Below are positions 22,579 to 30,813 of a stretch of 64,000 nt of DNA, in pieces. Numbering within the stretch: the stretch's first letter is position 1; each line of letters opens with the position of its first letter. The position numbers and the translations under genes were made by a program. A model generated the notes under the pieces. That model saw only the letters and a list, made by a program, of their open reading frames with translations. It ran no database searches and was not told where the DNA came from. This DNA comes from Collinsella sp. An268 (lineage in GTDB: Bacteria; Actinomycetota; Coriobacteriia; Coriobacteriales; Coriobacteriaceae). The stretch spans positions 62,001 through 126,000 of the forward strand of contig NZ_NFJH01000007.1 in assembly GCF_002159765.1 (NCBI RefSeq), given 5' to 3'.

Positions 22579-22611
22579 TCCTGTGCGGCCGGCAAGGGAT
22601 TGTTGGCTCTA

Positions 22612-22652
22612 CGAGAAAAGGGCCGGTCGCATCCTGTTGATGCGACCGGCCC
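22612..22652 (-). terminator. rho-independent terminator, mainly for the surface-protein gene
   Basis: 14-bp perfect stem 22620-22633 / 22639-22652 with a five-base loop. On the minus strand it is followed by TTTTCTC, so it ends the surface-protein transcript; it also lies just after the AEC stop and may work both ways. Confidence 0.85.
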
Positions 22653-22723
22653 ATGCATGACCGCGGTATGGGTTCTGGCTGCGGCGGGCGCGCTTGCCCA
22701 CGGATGCAGCCGGCAGCCACACG

Positions 22724-24673
22724 CTACTTGCGGCGCTTCGAGCCCACAGCCACAAGCCCTGCGCCGGCAAGGCCCGCCGCCGCAGCTCCCGCGCACGTAA
22801 TCAGCGAAGCATCGCCCGTGCTCGCGAGCGTGCCGTTTGCCGGGCCGTTGCCGTTGCCGGTGGGGGAACCCGTCTGCCCGCCGGCTGCGCCCGCGACGTT
22901 TGCCAGCACAAACGTGGAGAAGTGCGAGGTCGTGAAGCTCACGGTGCCGGCACCGGCGTTGACGGTGGCATTCATATCGGTCACCGTGCCGTCATCGGCC
23001 ACATGGAAGACGCGCAGCCCTTCCAGGCTCATGCCGAGCGGGACGCGCATGGTAACCGTCACTTGGTCGCCTGCGGGAATCTCGAACTCCGCACCCGTGG
23101 GGTCCTCAAGGTGGATGTCGTAGACGTACATCTTGGTGACGCCCGCGATGGCGGCGTTGATAGCGTCTCCCGCCGCAGTGGCCACGTCACCGTCCAGCCA
23201 ATCGGTCACGAGGGTGAGCATGCTCCATATCGCATCATCGGAGTAGGAGCTGCCGTCTTCTCCGACTACGGTGCCCGCCTGATGGGTGAGCATGGCGCCG
23301 TCCTCGTTGGCAATAACCGTTTCGGACGCTGCGCGCAGCTTGAGCGTGGAGGGTGCAGAGAGGTTGATGGAGAGGGTGTTGGGTCCTCCTACGCGGCTGA
23401 TGGTGCCCGCCCCCTGGGAGAGCTCGTAGGAGAGCGCTTTATCGGCGGGATAGGTAACCAAAAGGTCGGTCGACATGCCTTGGCCGTCGCCGCGTACAAA
23501 ATAGATGCCAGAGTCGGGCTGGCTGCTGAAGAGCGGATCGTCCTCATCGAGAGCGGCCGCATCGATCGTCATGGTCCAGGCTGTGCCGCCGCCCGGGTTG
23601 CTAAAGCTGATGCCCTCGTCTGCCTCGACCGTGAGCTGGTACCACGAGCCTAGCTCAGGATGATCGGGGAACGTCATGACGCCGTTCTCGATGGTGTAGG
23701 GGAGGAGGTTCCCGTCCGCGCCCCACGGCTCTGCAACGTTCTTGTAGGTGTAAAACGCGTACGTGCCGGTCGCAGTCATGTCATTGATGACGAGGTTTCC
23801 GCTCGCATCATGGGTGATCGACATGGTTTCCGGCTCGCCACCGTCCTCGGGGAGGCGCATGGCCCACACATCGGTAAGGTCGTCCACGCCGAGGGTGTCT
23901 TCGAGGCCATAGAACGTGAGGTCGAACGTTACGCCGTCGCTCGCGGCAAGGTCGTGCTGCGCCACATCGAGCGTGCCGTCGCTGCCGTCGGTGAGGTATT
24001 CGTCGAAAGCGATGTCGACGGTCTTTAGGCCTTCGAAACCACCGTTGGCGAGATGAGTGTCATACGCCTGCTGCTGGGCGGCGTTGAGGGTGGTCGTGTT
24101 GACGGCGATGGGGTACTCGTTGGCGCCCGCGCCGCCGATGCGGTCGCAGAACGCCTGCCAGGCGTCGATGCAGGAGGCATCGACCCTGCCGTTCGCGGGA
24201 ATCTCGCTCGCGTTGGATGCGGCGATGAGGGTGGTGGCACCCGTCCACCGCGCGGTGAGGACGATCTCGTGGATGCCGTTGCTACCGGTATCGCGGAAGT
24301 CGGAGGCGGCAAGCTCCTTGTCGAAGGCGATCTGCTCGAACCCGGTCGTCCAGCCTTGGAACGTATGCACGGTACCGTCGTTGAAGGTCACCGTTTGCCC
24401 TGCGGTGTAGTCGATGCTATAGCGCGCAAGGACCTCATCGATGGTTTCGCCCAGCGTGACGCTAAGGCTTTGGTTGGGCAGCGTGCCCGTTGGATCGTTG
24501 AGGTACAGCGAGAGCTGGTAGCTCGCATCTGCTTGTGCGCTCACGGCGGCGTCATCCGCCCATGCGCCCGTGGGCGCGAGCCCCGCCGTCACGGCCGCGA
24601 CGCCCGACGTGGCGAGCAGCAGCGCCGCGGCCAGGGGCGCAACGCGCCGGGCTGCTCCGTTCCATCTTCTCAT
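22724..24673 (-). CDS. sortase-anchored surface protein with InlB-B-like repeat
   Basis: 649 residues; ATG 24673 preceded by AAGGAGGG. Signal peptide about 1-40 (MRRWNGAARRVAPLAAALLL ... GAWADD). Residues 60-150 resemble an InlB B-repeat/Listeria-Bacteroides repeat (VTFNDGTVHTFQGWTTG ... IVLTARW). The middle is Asp/Gly/Thr-rich and unrecognised. C-terminus: FTTSHFSTFVLANV, Gly/Asn-rich wall spacer, sorting signal LASTG, hydrophobic helix and KRRK tail, i.e. an LPxTG-type anchor with Ala for Pro. Last gene of the minus-strand locus that starts with a LytTR regulator and three kinase-like proteins; probably controlled by them. Confidence 0.85.
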   Translation of the reverse strand: MRRWNGAARRVAPLAAALLLATSGVAAVTAGLAPTGAWADDAAVSAQADASYQLSLYLNDPTGTLPNQSLSVTLGETIDEVLARYSIDYTAGQTVTFNDGTVHTFQGWTTGFEQIAFDKELAASDFRDTGSNGIHEIVLTARWTGATTLIAASNASEIPANGRVDASCIDAWQAFCDRIGGAGANEYPIAVNTTTLNAAQQQAYDTHLANGGFEGLKTVDIAFDEYLTDGSDGTLDVAQHDLAASDGVTFDLTFYGLEDTLGVDDLTDVWAMRLPEDGGEPETMSITHDASGNLVINDMTATGTYAFYTYKNVAEPWGADGNLLPYTIENGVMTFPDHPELGSWYQLTVEADEGISFSNPGGGTAWTMTIDAAALDEDDPLFSSQPDSGIYFVRGDGQGMSTDLLVTYPADKALSYELSQGAGTISRVGGPNTLSINLSAPSTLKLRAASETVIANEDGAMLTHQAGTVVGEDGSSYSDDAIWSMLTLVTDWLDGDVATAAGDAINAAIAGVTKMYVYDIHLEDPTGAEFEIPAGDQVTVTMRVPLGMSLEGLRVFHVADDGTVTDMNATVNAGAGTVSFTTSHFSTFVLANVAGAAGGQTGSPTGNGNGPANGTLASTGDASLITCAGAAAAGLAGAGLVAVGSKRRK

Positions 24674-24823
24674 ACGGTTCCCTCCTTCTCCGCGCCGGAA
24701 GTGCGGCGCGTCCAGATGCAGTCTTCCGTATTCTCCCAACAGGCAGCGGGCGATAAAAGAGGTTTGGCAGGACAGGTGGCCTCTGCGGCAGCATCGGTCG
24801 GTGCGGCGGCGTCGTGCGCCTGC

Positions 24824-25798
24824 CTACGCGTGCAGCTGCCGGCGGAGCTCCGCCGCGTAGTCCCGGGCACGGTCCAGCTCGCCGCGCTCCACGAGCATGC
24901 CGATCACCTGCAGGTGGTTGCGCTGGTCGTGCCTGAAGCGCGCCGCCGCCTCGGCCTCGCGCGCCATGCGCCGTGCGGCATCCGCGTGCACGGCAAGCTG
25001 CGCCTCAAGGCCCGCGGCGCGCGCCCGCTCGCGCTGCGCGGTGCTGAACCGACGCAGGGAGAAGACGGCCGCGATGTCCGCAGCGGCGCAGAACAGGGTC
25101 ACGCCTAGCATCACGAGCGCGAGGGGCGTGGGGATGACGCCCAGCCCGCCGCAGAAGTAGGCAGTGTAGAGGACGAGTATCACGAACCCCTGCGTGGCCA
25201 GAAACCGCCCGTATGGGGCAGCATCCTCCGCGTCCTCGACCTGCCCGCTTCCATCTAGTGCAGCGCGGTCCAGGGGTCTCGAGCCGTCTGCCGCCGTGCG
25301 GTCGTATGCAAGGATCGCCTCCCGCTGCCGGGCGAAGAGCCGTCGGAGCGCCAGGCCGAGTATGGCGAGCACCACCAGCCCGGCAACGCGGACCGCAAAC
25401 TCGAGCGGGCTGCTCGTTACCTGAGCCGTGAGGGGGAGGCCCAGCACGCTGTAGAGCACCATGGTGGAGGTTTCTACCGTCAGCTCCGCAATGACCCCGA
25501 TGGCGATTGCCGCGGCGCGCACCGTGCGCGGGCCGCGCCAGCACAGGTAGGGGATGAGCACGTAGTCGGTAAGATACCAGAGCACGCGCTGGGTGGGATC
25601 GGGACCGATGGGCAGGAGCATGTTGCCGACGATCTGGCACGCGATCGCCGCCGTCCAGTACACGCGCGGGTTTTTGATGGGCAGGACCCATGCGCAGACG
25701 GCATGGTAGACCAGGTCGAAGGCAACGTGCTTGACGGTGAAGTTGAAGAGCAGGATGGCGAGGGCGCCGGTATCGGCGGCTTGGAGGAAGGGCTGCAT
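24824..25798 (-). CDS. AgrC-like membrane sensor with phosphoacceptor helix but no ATPase domain (receptor C)
   Basis: 324 residues. About six or seven membrane spans in residues 10-235, interrupted by a polar loop around 160-200, then a coiled-coil/dimerisation helix ending in FRHDQRNHLQVIGMLVERGE, where His290 matches the phosphoacceptor of AgrC/VirS-type GHKL kinases. The protein stops 34 residues later (RRQLHA), so the whole ATPase domain that normally follows is missing. The following DNA contains no GHKL remnant in any frame I could see. It starts 10 bp after the stop of the ATPase-domain protein and is a paralogue of the protein at 26752-27957. Inferred to be phosphorylated in trans. 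Confidence 0.8.
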   Translation of the reverse strand: MQPFLQAADTGALAILLFNFTVKHVAFDLVYHAVCAWVLPIKNPRVYWTAAIACQIVGNMLLPIGPDPTQRVLWYLTDYVLIPYLCWRGPRTVRAAAIAIGVIAELTVETSTMVLYSVLGLPLTAQVTSSPLEFAVRVAGLVVLAILGLALRRLFARQREAILAYDRTAADGSRPLDRAALDGSGQVEDAEDAAPYGRFLATQGFVILVLYTAYFCGGLGVIPTPLALVMLGVTLFCAAADIAAVFSLRRFSTAQRERARAAGLEAQLAVHADAARRMAREAEAAARFRHDQRNHLQVIGMLVERGELDRARDYAAELRRQLHA

Positions 25799-25807
25799 GG
25801 AGGGCTC

Positions 25808-26755
25808 CTAGTCTTTCCAGAGGGCGCTCAGGGTAAAGACGCCGTTCTCGCGCGTGCAGGCGAGGTCGCCGTCGCGCCGCTCGACGATCTGGCGCATGAT
25901 GGCGAGACCGAGCCCGTGGCGGGGGAGCGCTCCCGTGCCGTGGCGGGCGGCATCCGTCTCCCGTCCGGCGCCCTCTCTGCCTGACGTATCAGGCGCCGCG
26001 ACCGGGTTCTCGACCTCCAGAAGGAAATAACCCTGTGCGGGGTGCGCGTAGAGGCGGATCCAGCGCTTGCCCGTCGGCAGTGCGGTGCAGGCGTGCACGG
26101 CGTTGTCGAGCGCGTTGGCGAAGAGCGCGCAGAGCTCGACGTCAGGGGTGGCGAGGTCTCCCGGCACGGTCGCGTCCGCATCGAGCTCGACGCCCTCCTC
26201 GGCACACCACGCGGCCTTGGCTGCCAGAAGCGCGTCGACCACGGGGTGCTCGCAGAAGCGGTCGTCCGGCGTGCGGACCACCTCGGCCGCGCCTGCCAGG
26301 TGGGTGAGCGCGGCGGCATCGTCGCCCGTTGCGAGGGCGGCCTCGACCTGGGCGAGCTGAGCATCGAGCTCCGTGCGCACGCGGTCGCCTTCGGCCTGCG
26401 TGCGCCGCATGAGCAGGGCGTAGTGCTCCTGCGCGGCCACTTGGTCCTCCAGAAGCGCCGCTCGCTCGGCCTCGATGCCAGCTCGCTCGGCGTCGAGTAG
26501 GCTGCGGAAGAACAGCGGGTTCAGACAGGCGCAGACCACGCCCATGGCCGCCGCCAGGAGCGCCACGGCCTCCCAGGCGGCGAAGTGCGGGCGGAGCAGG
26601 AACGCGCTGGCCACGAAGAGGATCTGGCTCGCCGGCATGAGCAGGTTGACCGCACGGCGCGCAAGCGGCAGCTCGCGGAGGAGCCACCACAGGTAGACGG
26701 TCGAGACGGCGAGCGCGCCGAATGAGACGGCTCCCAGGGCGTAGACGATGTTCAT
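25808..26755 (-). CDS. membrane GHKL ATPase protein lacking the phosphoacceptor His (kinase B)
   Basis: 315 residues. Three membrane spans (about 4-26, 35-54, 60-83), then a long coiled coil (83-150). Where the AgrC-type helix should have RHDxxN it reads LMRRTQAEGDRVRTEL, with no His at that place. Residues 160-315 form an HATPase_c_5/GHKL domain: N-box LFANALDNAVHAC (Asn214, Asn218), ENPV, and GLGLAIMRQIVERRDGDL (G2 box). So it has the ATP-binding half of a histidine kinase without its own acceptor. Its ATG overlaps the stop of the upstream paralogue (four-base overlap). Best read as the catalytic subunit for its two neighbours. Confidence 0.8.
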   Translation of the reverse strand: MNIVYALGAVSFGALAVSTVYLWWLLRELPLARRAVNLLMPASQILFVASAFLLRPHFAAWEAVALLAAAMGVVCACLNPLFFRSLLDAERAGIEAERAALLEDQVAAQEHYALLMRRTQAEGDRVRTELDAQLAQVEAALATGDDAAALTHLAGAAEVVRTPDDRFCEHPVVDALLAAKAAWCAEEGVELDADATVPGDLATPDVELCALFANALDNAVHACTALPTGKRWIRLYAHPAQGYFLLEVENPVAAPDTSGREGAGRETDAARHGTGALPRHGLGLAIMRQIVERRDGDLACTRENGVFTLSALWKD

Positions 26756-27957
26756 GGGGTTTCCTCAAGGATCGGTGCCGTTCGAGAGGCGGCTGGACAC
26801 GGGGCGCCGGCGGCGCCGCGAGGCCCGCGGCGGGACTCGGGTCGCGCTGGGCGGGGCGGCGGCGCGTCGGCGACGGATGAGGAGGAGGTCGGGCTCGGCC
26901 GGGTGTCTGGTGTCGCGATATCCCGTGCGCCCGGCGTCGCGGCCGCGGGCTCGGCCACGGCGGGTGCCTCGCCGATGCCGCGGCGCAGATCGCGCGCGTA
27001 GGCCAGGGCACGCCTGCGCTCTCCACGCTCCACGAGCACCCCGAGCACCTGCAGGTGGTTGCGCTGATCGTGCCTAAAGCGCGCCTCCGCCTCCGCCTCC
27101 CGCATCGTGCGGCGCGCGGCGTCTGCGTGCACGGCGAGCTGTCGCTCGAGCGCCTCCGCCCGTTCACGCTCCCGGAGCGCCGCGCCCAGGCGCCTGAGCG
27201 AGGCGAGGGCGAGCACGTCGGCGCCGAGGCAGATGGCGACGAGAGCCGCCATGATGAGGTAGGGGGCGGGCGAGATGTTGCGGTGCGCCATGATGACCGC
27301 CGAGCCGACGAGCAAAGATCCCAGCTGGGTGGCGAGGAAGAGCAGGTACGGTCGGTCGGGTGTCCGGGCGGCGCGACGGTCGCGCTGGTGCGGGTGCGCG
27401 GCGCTGCGCAGGCGGTTTGGCGACGCTCCTGCATCTGCATCGCTCGCTGCAGCCTTCGCGTTGCCCGCTCGCCTCGCGCCTCGTCCGCATCCGCCCGCAG
27501 CGGACCCCTGCCAGCCGGCGCGCCGGACGGCGATCGCCATGACTCGGCCGATGGTGAGCATCGATACCCCGCACAGGATTCGCGCAACGATGCCGGTCGC
27601 ATCGACCGCATCGCGGTTGACGCTGAGTCCGGTGAAGAGGATGAGGATCCCGAAGACCATCTCGCTGGAGATCTCGGTCGCCACGAGCACGAGCGCGCAG
27701 ACTGCGCGCCGCGCCCAGGGCGCCTTCCAAAATAGACAGGGGATTACGAGGTAGTTGAGGACGTACCCCGCGATATTCCAGGACGTCAGGGTGGTCGGGC
27801 TCGCCAGCGCAAGCGCAAGGGGGCTGATCGCGAGCATGCAGGCGAAAAAGGCGGCGGGCCGCCGGACGGGCAGCAGCCAGGTGGCGACGACGGCGATGAC
27901 GGCGTTGACGCCAAGGAGCACGATCTGGTTGAGGGCGGACAGCGCGAGCAGCTGCAT
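26752..27957 (-). CDS. AgrC-like membrane sensor with phosphoacceptor helix but no ATPase domain (receptor A)
   Basis: 401 residues. Six or so membrane spans (8-245) with a ~65-residue Ala/Arg/Asp-rich insertion near 155-215, then a helix with FRHDQRNHLQVLGVLVERGE, acceptor His296. After residue ~325 there is only a 75-residue Ala/Pro/Ser-rich tail (PAVAEPAAATPGARD ...) in place of an ATPase domain. The membrane-plus-helix part is clearly paralogous to the protein at 24824-25798. Starts 10 bp after the response regulator stop and overlaps the ATPase-domain gene. Confidence 0.8.
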   Translation of the reverse strand: MQLLALSALNQIVLLGVNAVIAVVATWLLPVRRPAAFFACMLAISPLALALASPTTLTSWNIAGYVLNYLVIPCLFWKAPWARRAVCALVLVATEISSEMVFGILILFTGLSVNRDAVDATGIVARILCGVSMLTIGRVMAIAVRRAGWQGSAAGGCGRGARRAGNAKAAASDADAGASPNRLRSAAHPHQRDRRAARTPDRPYLLFLATQLGSLLVGSAVIMAHRNISPAPYLIMAALVAICLGADVLALASLRRLGAALRERERAEALERQLAVHADAARRTMREAEAEARFRHDQRNHLQVLGVLVERGERRRALAYARDLRRGIGEAPAVAEPAAATPGARDIATPDTRPSPTSSSSVADAPPPRPARPESRRGPRGAAGAPCPAASRTAPILEETP

Positions 27958-27966
27958 GGGCGCGGC

Positions 27967-28731
27967 CTACCGGCGACGGGCTCGCAGATGGGCGAAGAGC
28001 GCGGCGCGCACCTCGGCACGCATGCGGCGGCTTACGGGGACCTGCTCGCCGCTTACGAGCGTGATCGACGAGGCGTCGAGCGAGGTCACGGCATCGAGGT
28101 TCACCGCGAAGCTCTGGTGGCAGCGCACGAAGCGCGCGGGCAGCGCGTCGAGCAGGTCGGAGAGCTTGCCGTAGACCTCCAACACGCCGCGCGCCGCGTG
28201 GACGCGGACCACGTGGAGCCGGCTCTCCAGGTACCGGATCTCGGCGGGCTCCACCACCTGGTCGGCGCCCTTGACCTTGAGGCAGAGGGGTTCCTCGGCC
28301 GTGCGCGCGCGGGCGGCCAGCGCGAGGTCGAGGGCGTAGGCGACGTCCTCGGCGCAAAACGGCTTGCGCAGGTAGGCGGCGTGGGGCGTGCGGTAGACCT
28401 GCGTGTGGAACGCGTCGTAGCCGCTCACGTAGATGATCTGCGTGAGCGGGGAGCGCGCGAGCAGACGGTCCACGGCCTCGATGCCGTCGGCGGCGGGGCC
28501 GGCGGTTGCGGGGTCGAGCACGATGTCGATGAAGACGATGTCGGGGACGTAGGCCTCGTCGAGCTGGCGCGCGAGCTCATCGGCCGAGGCGAAGCAGCGT
28601 ACCTCGAAGAAGGCGCCTTGCAGGGGCTCGCTCGCTGCGGTCGGCGCATCGGACGGTCGGGAGGCGGTCACGAGCCGTGCGAGTGCCTCGGCGTCCGCGG
28701 GGATGTCATCGACGATAGCGGCGGCGTACAC
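27967..28731 (-). CDS. LytTR-family response regulator
   Basis: 254 residues from GTG 28731, chosen because GGGAAGGAGG lies directly upstream; an in-frame ATG at 28752 has no ribosome site and would start about ten bases after the predicted transcript start. Receiver domain: acidic pocket AAIVDDIPAD, phosphoacceptor Asp in VPDIVFIDIVLD, Lys in YLRKPF. C-terminal LytTR DNA-binding domain at about 150-250 (IRYLESRLHVVRVHA, KLSDLLDALPARFVRCHQSFAVNLD, VSRRMRAEVRAALF). AgrA/VirR-like; such regulators pair with AgrC/GHKL kinases, here the three kinase-like genes that follow. First gene of the locus. Confidence 0.92.
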   Translation of the reverse strand: MYAAAIVDDIPADAEALARLVTASRPSDAPTAASEPLQGAFFEVRCFASADELARQLDEAYVPDIVFIDIVLDPATAGPAADGIEAVDRLLARSPLTQIIYVSGYDAFHTQVYRTPHAAYLRKPFCAEDVAYALDLALAARARTAEEPLCLKVKGADQVVEPAEIRYLESRLHVVRVHAARGVLEVYGKLSDLLDALPARFVRCHQSFAVNLDAVTSLDASSITLVSGEQVPVSRRMRAEVRAALFAHLRARRR

Positions 28732-28769
28732 GGATCCTCCTTCCCGGTTCATGGCTACGCAATGCTCAC

Positions 28770-28775
28770 ATTATA
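28770..28775 (-). promoter_or_regulatory. -10 element of the LytTR/kinase locus
   Basis: A perfect TATAAT on the minus strand, 39 bp upstream of the GTG start of the regulator. No convincing -35, as expected for an activated promoter; autoregulation by the LytTR protein is plausible but not shown. Confidence 0.55.
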
Positions 28776-28945
28776 GGTGCGCCCGGCTTCTTGCCCGCGA
28801 TGGAGGCCCTAAGCTGCCGAAGCTGATGAAAATCGAGCCGAATATGCATGCCCCCGGTGCATCCCGCGCTCGAGCGAGCGCCGCCGCGAGCGTTGCCATT
28901 GCGTGACCGCCGCGCCCGTCGGCGGGGCGCGCGCAGAGGGCCGCG

Positions 28946-28951
28946 TATAAT
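28946..28951 (+). promoter_or_regulatory. -10 element of gatCAB
   Basis: TATAAT 31 bp upstream of gatC, weak -35. The 210-bp spacer is shared with the divergent LytTR promoter. Confidence 0.55.
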
Positions 28952-28981
28952 GATGCGGATTGACGTACGGAAGGAGCGCCC

Positions 28982-29290
28982 ATGGCACTCACCCAAGAAG
29001 ACGTGCGCGGCATCGCCGATTACGCGCGCATCGCGCTGGAGGGCGACGAGCTCGCTCAGATGACGGCCTACATGAACGACGCCGTGGCGATGCTCGAGCC
29101 CGTGCTCGCCTACAACCTGCCCGATGTGGAGCCCACGTTCCATCCCATCGGCGACCTCTCCAATGTCATGCGAGAGGACGCCGCGGCGCCGGAGCGCGAC
29201 CTTGCGCGCGACGCCGCGCTCGGCAACGCCGTCGCGACGCGCGGCGACAGTTTCCGCGTGCCCTCGATTCTGGGGGAGGGTGAGGCGTGA
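28982..29290 (+). CDS. gatC: Asp/Glu-tRNA amidotransferase subunit C
   Basis: 102 residues. Small structural subunit that wraps GatA and GatB (LTQEDVRGIADYARIAL ... VEPTFHP, DSFRVPSIL). AAGGAG precedes the ATG. Its stop overlaps gatA (TGATG). Needed where Gln-tRNA or Asn-tRNA is made by transamidation of misacylated tRNA, the normal route in Actinomycetota. Confidence 0.95.
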   Translation: MALTQEDVRGIADYARIALEGDELAQMTAYMNDAVAMLEPVLAYNLPDVEPTFHPIGDLSNVMREDAAAPERDLARDAALGNAVATRGDSFRVPSILGEGEA

Positions 29291-30813
29291 TGGCGCGTTC
29301 CTTCGATACCCTCACCGCCGCGGAGATCGCGGCCGGCATCGCCGCGGGGGATTTCTCTGCCGCCGAGGTATGCACGGCTGCGCTCGACGCCATCGCCGCG
29401 CGCGAGCCGGAGGTGCAGGCCTTCTTGCAGGTGACGCCCGAGCTGGCGCAAGAGGCTGCAGCGCGCATTGACGCCGCGCGCGCCGCCGGCGAGGCGCTGG
29501 GGCCGCTTGCGGGCGTGCCGCTTGCCATCAAGGACAACATGAACCTGGCGGGCACGCGCACGACCTGCGCCTCCCGTATGCTCGAGAACTACGAGAGCCC
29601 CTATACCGCCACCTGCGTGGCGCGCATGCTCGCCGCCGGCTGCATCCCCGTGGGCAAGGCCAACATGGACGAGTTCGCGTTCGGTTCCTCGACGGACAGT
29701 TCGGCCTTCCACCCCACCAACAACCCGTGGGACACCGCCCGCGTGCCGGGCGGCTCCTCGGGCGGCTCGGCGGCGGCGGTCGCCGCGGGCATGGTGCCGC
29801 TCTCGCTCGGTTCCGACACGGGCGGCTCGATCCGTCAGCCGGCGGCGCTCTGCGGCGTGGTGGGCATGAAACCCACCTACGGTGCGGTCAGCCGTTACGG
29901 CGTGGTCGCCTTCGGCAGCTCGCTCGATCAGGTGGGGCCCTTCGGCCGCACGGTTGCGGATGTGGCGCTCGCCATGGATGCGCTCGTGTCCGGCGGGCGC
30001 GACCCGTATGACTCGACGGCGCAGGACGTCGTCCCGGGCTTTGTCGCCGCTGCTGCCTCGGCAGAGGACCTCGCCGGCACGCGCATCGGTCTGGTGCCGG
30101 CGTTTATGGAGGCCGAGGGCCTGACGGCCGAGGTCCGTGCCGGTGTCGAGCGCGCCGCCTCCGCGCTCGAGGCGGCGGGTGCCGAGCTCGTCGAGGTCGA
30201 TCTGCCGCATGTCGACGCGGCGATCGCGGCCTACTACGTCATCGGTCCCGCCGAGGCGTTCTCCAACCTCGCCCGCTTCGATGGCATCCGCTACGGCTAC
30301 CAGGAGCCCGGCTGCGCGAACCTCGCCCAGCAGAGCGCCCTTTCGCGTGCGCATGGCTTTGGCGACGAGGCCAAGCGCCGCCAGATGCTCGGCGCCTATC
30401 TGCTCTCGAGCGGTGTGTACGACACCTATTACTATGCGGCCCAGAAGGCGCGCACGCTCATCACGGCGGACTACACGGCGGCGTTTGCTCAGGTCGACGC
30501 CATTCTCATGCCGGCAACCCCGCACGCGGCCTTCCGCCACGGCGAGATCTCCGATCCCACGCAGATGTACCTCTCCGACATGTATACCATCTCGCTCAAC
30601 ATCGCCGGCAACGGCGGCATCGTCGTACCGGTGGGTCTTGGCGAGGACACGGGGCTTCCCATGGCGGCCCAGCTCGTGGCGCCTGCGTTTGCCGACGAGC
30701 GCCTGGTGACCTACGCTGCGGTCATCGAGCGCGCGCTGGCCGATGCGGCGACGGGGGCGCCCGTGCTCGGCGTCGCCCCGGCCTGTGCCGGGAAAGGGGG
30801 TGAGCTCGCATGA
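29290..30813 (+). CDS. gatA: Glu-tRNA(Gln)/Asp-tRNA(Asn) amidotransferase subunit A
   Basis: 507 residues from ATG 29290 (GTG 29287 is an equivalent start). Amidase-signature enzyme that releases ammonia from glutamine. The Ser-cisSer-Lys triad is visible: Lys in AIKDNMNLAG, Ser in GGSSGGSAAAVAAG and the acyl-forming Ser in GSDTGGSIRQPA. Normal length. gatB starts within its last codons (ATGA overlap), giving a tight CAB operon. Confidence 0.97.
   Translation: MARSFDTLTAAEIAAGIAAGDFSAAEVCTAALDAIAAREPEVQAFLQVTPELAQEAAARIDAARAAGEALGPLAGVPLAIKDNMNLAGTRTTCASRMLENYESPYTATCVARMLAAGCIPVGKANMDEFAFGSSTDSSAFHPTNNPWDTARVPGGSSGGSAAAVAAGMVPLSLGSDTGGSIRQPAALCGVVGMKPTYGAVSRYGVVAFGSSLDQVGPFGRTVADVALAMDALVSGGRDPYDSTAQDVVPGFVAAAASAEDLAGTRIGLVPAFMEAEGLTAEVRAGVERAASALEAAGAELVEVDLPHVDAAIAAYYVIGPAEAFSNLARFDGIRYGYQEPGCANLAQQSALSRAHGFGDEAKRRQMLGAYLLSSGVYDTYYYAAQKARTLITADYTAAFAQVDAILMPATPHAAFRHGEISDPTQMYLSDMYTISLNIAGNGGIVVPVGLGEDTGLPMAAQLVAPAFADERLVTYAAVIERALADAATGAPVLGVAPACAGKGGELA

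Follow-up and report, generated by a model that had tools for sequence, protein, structure and literature searches.

The R-A-B-C Operon and Its Surroundings

The window is a stretch of 64,000 nucleotides from a Collinsella genome (G000; 2.37 Mb in 26 contigs) whose nearest named relative is Collinsella sp. An7, with C 97% identical. It contains an operon of four tightly spaced minus-strand genes, R, A, B, and C, and a further gene, S, begins 150 bp beyond C. R and A are separated by 9 bp, A and B overlap by 4 bp, and B and C are separated by 9 bp.

R (27967..28752, minus strand) is a LytTR response regulator with an intact receiver domain (Pfam LytTR 4.5e-19). A GTG at 28731, preceded by GGAGG, is a likelier start than 28752. 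With its receiver Asp and LytTR domain, R meets the criterion for a LytTR two-component regulator, and its homologues retain the acceptor Asp and Lys (50/50) and the Ser/Thr (50/50). A (26752..27957, minus strand) is a membrane receptor with an HPK10-type DHp (His296, HDQRN), no ATPase domain, and a Pro/Ala-rich, weakly constrained tail. B (25808..26755, minus strand) is a three-span ATPase subunit with a DHp-like hairpin that carries Thr128 in place of the His (Pfam HATPase_c_5 1.3e-12). C (24824..25798, minus strand) is a second membrane receptor, consisting of seven predicted TM helices, a long helix with His290, and a short second helix, after which it ends. S (22724..24673, minus strand) is a secreted surface protein with a sortase-type C-terminal signal (LASTGD...KRRK) and is the likely output gene.

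Comparison of the window with Collinsella sp. An7 gives dN/dS values of 0.31-0.51 for R, A, B, and C, which indicates that all four are under purifying selection. At the DNA level, the B-C block (window 24822-26720) is mostly 97-99% identical to An7, while R, A, and the C-S gap reach only about 50-89%. Judging from this contrast, the block looks recently exchanged between species. Inside this otherwise nearly identical block, the part of B near the ATP lid (window 25936-26040) is highly variable, with 71% identity and an 18-residue length difference. The tail of A (window 26752-27070) is Pro/Ala/Ser-rich, missing from most relatives, and weakly constrained (dN/dS 0.82).

Paired direct repeats lie in front of both R and S. 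Two direct repeats about 21 bp apart are the arrangement expected of a LytTR regulator's binding site. The first, CATATTCGG-N12-CAGCTTCGG (28817..28846, minus strand), is a putative R binding site without binding data; its two CATATTCGG-like copies are 21 bp apart and lie 41 bp before a TATAAT. The second, ACCGATGCTGC-N10-ACCTGTCCTGC (24767..24798, minus strand), lies between C and S, has the same 21-bp spacing, and is a putative R binding site in the opposite orientation. Both of its halves are conserved in five species while their surroundings differ. On the opposite strand, the S box CAGCATCGG agrees with the R box CAGCTTCGG at 8/9 positions, and the second S box is a poorer match. Each pattern has a single zero-mismatch match in the genome, at R and at S respectively; a third repeat-like site with one mismatch (G000:C22, L176) was taken as a chance occurrence. 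When all loci are considered, a spacing of 21 bp outdoes the others only modestly, and 9/48 loci have at least 8 of 9 matches. The binding-site claim therefore rests on close relatives.

S has no relative in Pfam or the PDB, and by the first pattern searched it is the only sortase-type protein in the 64-kb window. At about 13 loci of two families, a split-kinase cassette is followed directly by a sortase-type surface protein; these loci include L057, L058, L075, L062, L064, L068, L074, L149, L153, and L155. One such protein belongs to a second cassette of the window genome (L062 6085-7545). Because the repeats occur at both R and S, each once in the genome, S is a likely target of R, although binding by R and control of S are both inferred.

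Division of the Kinase between Receptors and B

A and C both carry FRHDQRNH in an HPK10-type DHp helix and end soon after it, with 105 residues following His296 in A and 34 following His290 in C. Pfam finds no ATPase domain in either protein. Nor is a frameshifted ATPase domain present behind them: a six-frame profile search of 22600-29300 matched B only (25811-26263, 215 bits). The AlphaFold2 model of C has good confidence (pLDDT 87, pTM 0.75) and contains seven membrane helices, the last of which continues as one long helix (224-304) that holds His290 and is followed by a turn and a short helix (308-323). Neither the fold search nor the profile search gave a significant solved relative for the sensor part of the receptors (best E values 0.38 and 0.099, respectively).

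B spans the membrane three times and carries a GHKL ATPase domain, which corresponds to HATPase_c_5 (PF14501, E 1.3e-12) and has an intact N box (NALDNA, 214-219) and G box (HGLGL, 280-284). From the DHp onward, a profile of B aligns with the AgrC kinase module 6e52 (E 8e-5). The residue aligned to the acceptor His is Thr128, within VRTELDAQL, and the distance from this column to the N box is 86 residues, compared with 87 (88 in one case) in one-piece kinases. Among 51 B proteins, the acceptor column holds a His in only 3, whereas 20/20 one-piece kinases linked to LytTR regulators in the class have it there; most of these 20 are near-copies from one genus. The other B proteins have Thr, Ala, Glu, Asp, Arg, Leu, or other residues in this column. 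Two of the three His-bearing proteins are near-identical and lack the HDxxN context, and one of the three is B2 of the second cassette in the window genome. The N and G box residues are conserved across B proteins, with Asn214 and Asn218 each retained in 50/51.

The sequence-only reading of this locus had described the same genes, coordinates, overlaps, and residue numbers, and these held; its end of R at 28731 is the likelier GTG start. Its acceptor residues His296 in A and His290 in C, with no ATPase domain behind them, were likewise confirmed, as were the three spans and GHKL ATPase domain of B and the absence of an acceptor His. Its placing of the lost His at MRRTQAEGDR (117-126) failed, and the aligned residue, Thr128, lies about 10 residues away.

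Conservation and Fusion across the Coriobacteriales

The division into A and B is not peculiar to the window: about 50 loci, spread over three families of Coriobacteriales, have it next to a LytTR regulator. Protein and profile searches of 67 genomes of the window's family and 300 of its class yielded 61 receptors and 51 B proteins, some of them from metagenome assemblies. Receptor and B genes adjoin at about 16 loci of the window's family and at 33 loci of the two other families. They are adjacent and often overlap, and R adjoins them in nearly all loci. All 61 receptors retain RH[DE], 59 of them have the Asn at +4 (HDxxN), and their ends lie 34-110 residues past the acceptor His. By Pfam, HATPase_c_5 is present in 45/45 scanned B proteins and an HATPase domain in 0/47 scanned receptors, while a SPOB_a-type DHp family is found in 30/47 receptors and in no B protein. 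Outside the Coriobacteriales, the sampled phylum gave only two weak matches, both inside longer frames of 464-467 aa whose content was not read.

A and B form a single chain beside R in three genomes of two genera (L157, L158, and L162). These fusions keep the His in the A half and have Glu or Arg in the B half. In a mixed A + B alignment, the receptor His aligned with Glu452 of the fusion; this alignment placed A rows on the B half and was left out of folding. In a kinase-core tree, a single branch (SH-aLRT 99) separates the one-piece kinases from the B proteins and the fusions, with the fusions grouped as one clade nested inside the B proteins. The tree is rooted on a small set of one-piece kinases and contains long branches. 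No intact kinase orthologous to the split one turned up; the class does have one-piece kinases, but these sit on a branch of their own. The A-B fusion model is of moderate quality (mean pLDDT 71, pTM 0.56). The turn regions of both DHp hairpins are among its most confident cytoplasmic parts, and DesK- and HK853-type kinase cores are the best matches to its B half.

Eleven loci contain two to four receptors. Within a locus, the sensor parts are 25-45% identical (between-locus median 26%), whereas the signalling helix and DHp are 41-93% identical (median 32%). A and C of the window share 30% identity in the sensor and 71% in the DHp; the corresponding values are 42% and 93% for the receptors of the second cassette and 29% and 81% at locus L143. 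In the L135-L137 group, the contrast between sensor and DHp is small. Divergent sensors combined with similar DHp regions are expected if paired receptors read different signals yet fit the same B and R. The likeness of the DHp regions is thus indirect evidence for a common B.

The second cassette of the window genome, R2-A2-C2-B2 (L062 2060-5962, G000:C23), is diverged and has two receptors and one ATPase subunit. Its A2 and C2 read HDARA and lack the Asn of the phosphatase motif, while in its B2 the acceptor column does hold a His, though not in an HDxxN setting. The largest array seen (L159 2596-9774, G235) combines four receptors, two ATPase subunits, and one regulator in one cluster. A B2-type ATPase subunit in a further genome (L063 4188-5207, G001) lies about 0.9 kb from a contig end, and no receptor was found beside it or elsewhere in that genome.

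A Proposed Split Kinase with Interchangeable Receptors

The locus is likely to encode a split LytTR-type histidine kinase with interchangeable receptors (probability roughly 0.83). The split itself, its conservation, the fusions, the common DHp of paired receptors, and the repeats are shown by sequence. That the subunits form a complex, that phosphorylation occurs in trans, that the receptors act as phosphatases, and that R binds the repeats and controls S is inferred, with no biochemical data and no predicted complex. In the proposed mechanism, A and C would be seven-span receptors whose cytoplasmic part is a DHp hairpin with the acceptor His, and B would be a membrane-anchored kinase core that has kept ATP binding and a DHp-like hairpin but lost the His. 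B would pair with A or C, probably via the hairpins, and its ATPase domain would phosphorylate the receptor His in trans. The phosphate would then pass from the receptor His to the Asp of R, and R is predicted to bind the paired 21-bp repeats that precede both its own operon and S. Judging from their HDxxN motif, A and C may also be able to dephosphorylate R. The evidence fits either two activating inputs or one activating and one restraining input from A and C. The sequence-only reading had proposed a heteromeric receptor in which one ATPase subunit phosphorylates two sensor subunits in trans, an arrangement that could integrate two ligands. That reading is supported overall, while trans phosphotransfer, stoichiometry, and two-ligand integration remain inference. 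Further weight comes from the fusions, from the phosphoacceptor domains that paired receptors have in common, and from the fact that the only two HATPase_c_5 proteins of the window genome are B subunits that are His-less or non-canonical.

One rival holds that A, B, and C are what is left of intact AgrC-like kinases after a frameshift, a deletion, or an assembly error. In its favor, A and C stop right past the DHp, and the low-complexity tail of A has a dN/dS of 0.82. Against it, about 50 loci in three families conserve the split, R, A, B, and C are all under purifying selection, no hidden ATPase frame exists, and the domains divide cleanly between the proteins. The sequence-only reading had named as refuting outcomes an ATPase domain restored by frameshift correction, intact orthologues, or a trio missing from all relatives. 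None of these came about: the six-frame search gave no frameshifted ATPase, no intact orthologue turned up, and relatives conserve the split at about 50 loci. The split is neither an assembly error nor decay, and this rival retains almost no room.

Two further rivals accept the genes as they are. B could be a DivL-like pseudokinase modulator or a Spo0B-like phosphotransferase, with another one-piece kinase phosphorylating A and C. Like DivL (PMC4211667), B has no acceptor His, and an ATP-binding domain alone is no proof of catalysis. However, the N and G box residues are conserved in B, and the fusions join one A to one B. In addition, B and B2 of the second cassette are the only two HATPase_c_5 proteins in the window genome, so no one-piece kinase of that type is available to phosphorylate A and C. 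This explanation is highly improbable. Alternatively, the split kinase could be real while C, rather than adding a second activating input, acts as a competitor or a phosphatase-dominant decoy, either tying up B or removing phosphate from R. The cassettes of three related genomes lack C (L057, L058, and L075: R, A, B, and S), although in L075 A and R sit on another contig, and in the CheA3 model a receptor without its own ATPase is a phosphatase by default (PMC3591291). Conversely, C retains His290 and a DHp 71% identical to that of A, and several loci have second receptors whose sensors differ, which leaves the decoy role improbable, if less so than the pseudokinase role of B.

Split kinases as such are known. 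CheA3/CheA4 of Rhodobacter sphaeroides is a biochemically characterized example (PMC3591291) and resembles the Collinsella system in placing the acceptor His and the ATP-binding domain on different proteins, one without the His and one without the ATPase. CheA3/CheA4 is of the CheA type, has its His in a P1 domain, and phosphorylates CheY6, whereas the Collinsella system combines an AgrC-like membrane DHp with a LytTR regulator, has as many as four receptors at a locus, and has a kinase subunit that itself spans the membrane. No CheA-family domains (P1 Hpt, P3, P4, P5) are found in it; Pfam gives a SPOB_a-like DHp and HATPase_c_5 instead. HisKA proteins without HATPase make up 3.66% of HisKA proteins in SMART and are candidate split kinases (PMC3591291). 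That count is a domain tally restricted to the HisKA model, and the passage reporting it describes no partner, operon, or multi-receptor layout. DivL is a histidine kinase homologue without an acceptor His, and its catalytic domain is described as repurposed for sensing the phosphorylation state of a regulator (PMC4211667). B shares the missing His with DivL but is tied to His-bearing, ATPase-less receptors.

AgrC/AgrA and other LytTR-linked HPK10 kinases share with the Collinsella system the multi-span receptor, the RHDxxNH DHp, HATPase_c_5, and the LytTR regulator. AgrC is one polypeptide, whereas the Collinsella system has all of its features on two or three separate proteins. No AgrB was seen in the sequence-only reading, and this held for the whole window genome, which has no PF04647 match; the search covered AgrB only, with AgrD outside it. 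At this time, no papers on such a system in Collinsella or Coriobacteriia, or on a heterodimeric histidine kinase, were found in the literature searched, which left many journals uncovered. Within that literature, the membrane, AgrC-like, multi-receptor, and order-wide version appears undescribed.

The motif H[DE]xx[NT] is named as a phosphatase motif (PMC3591291), and its presence in the receptors suggests that free receptors may dephosphorylate R. Modelling indicates that a split bifunctional kinase can be ultrasensitive or bistable (PMC3591291). A bolder reading, toward which the evidence does not quite lean, is an order-wide plug-in architecture with a common His-less ATPase subunit and exchangeable receptors that compete for it. 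A B-bound receptor would act as a kinase and a free receptor as a phosphatase, and through the ratio of occupied receptors, gut Coriobacteriia would combine several inputs into a switch-like decision on a surface protein.

Because the receptors carry no ATPase domain, searches for kinases by that domain would miss them. The split kinases form a large natural family in common gut bacteria, in which a locus has between one and four receptors and the natural fusions serve as controls. With such a family, the benefit of splitting a kinase becomes a directly testable question. The proposed system could give Collinsella-like bacteria a way of linking several external signals to a single surface protein.
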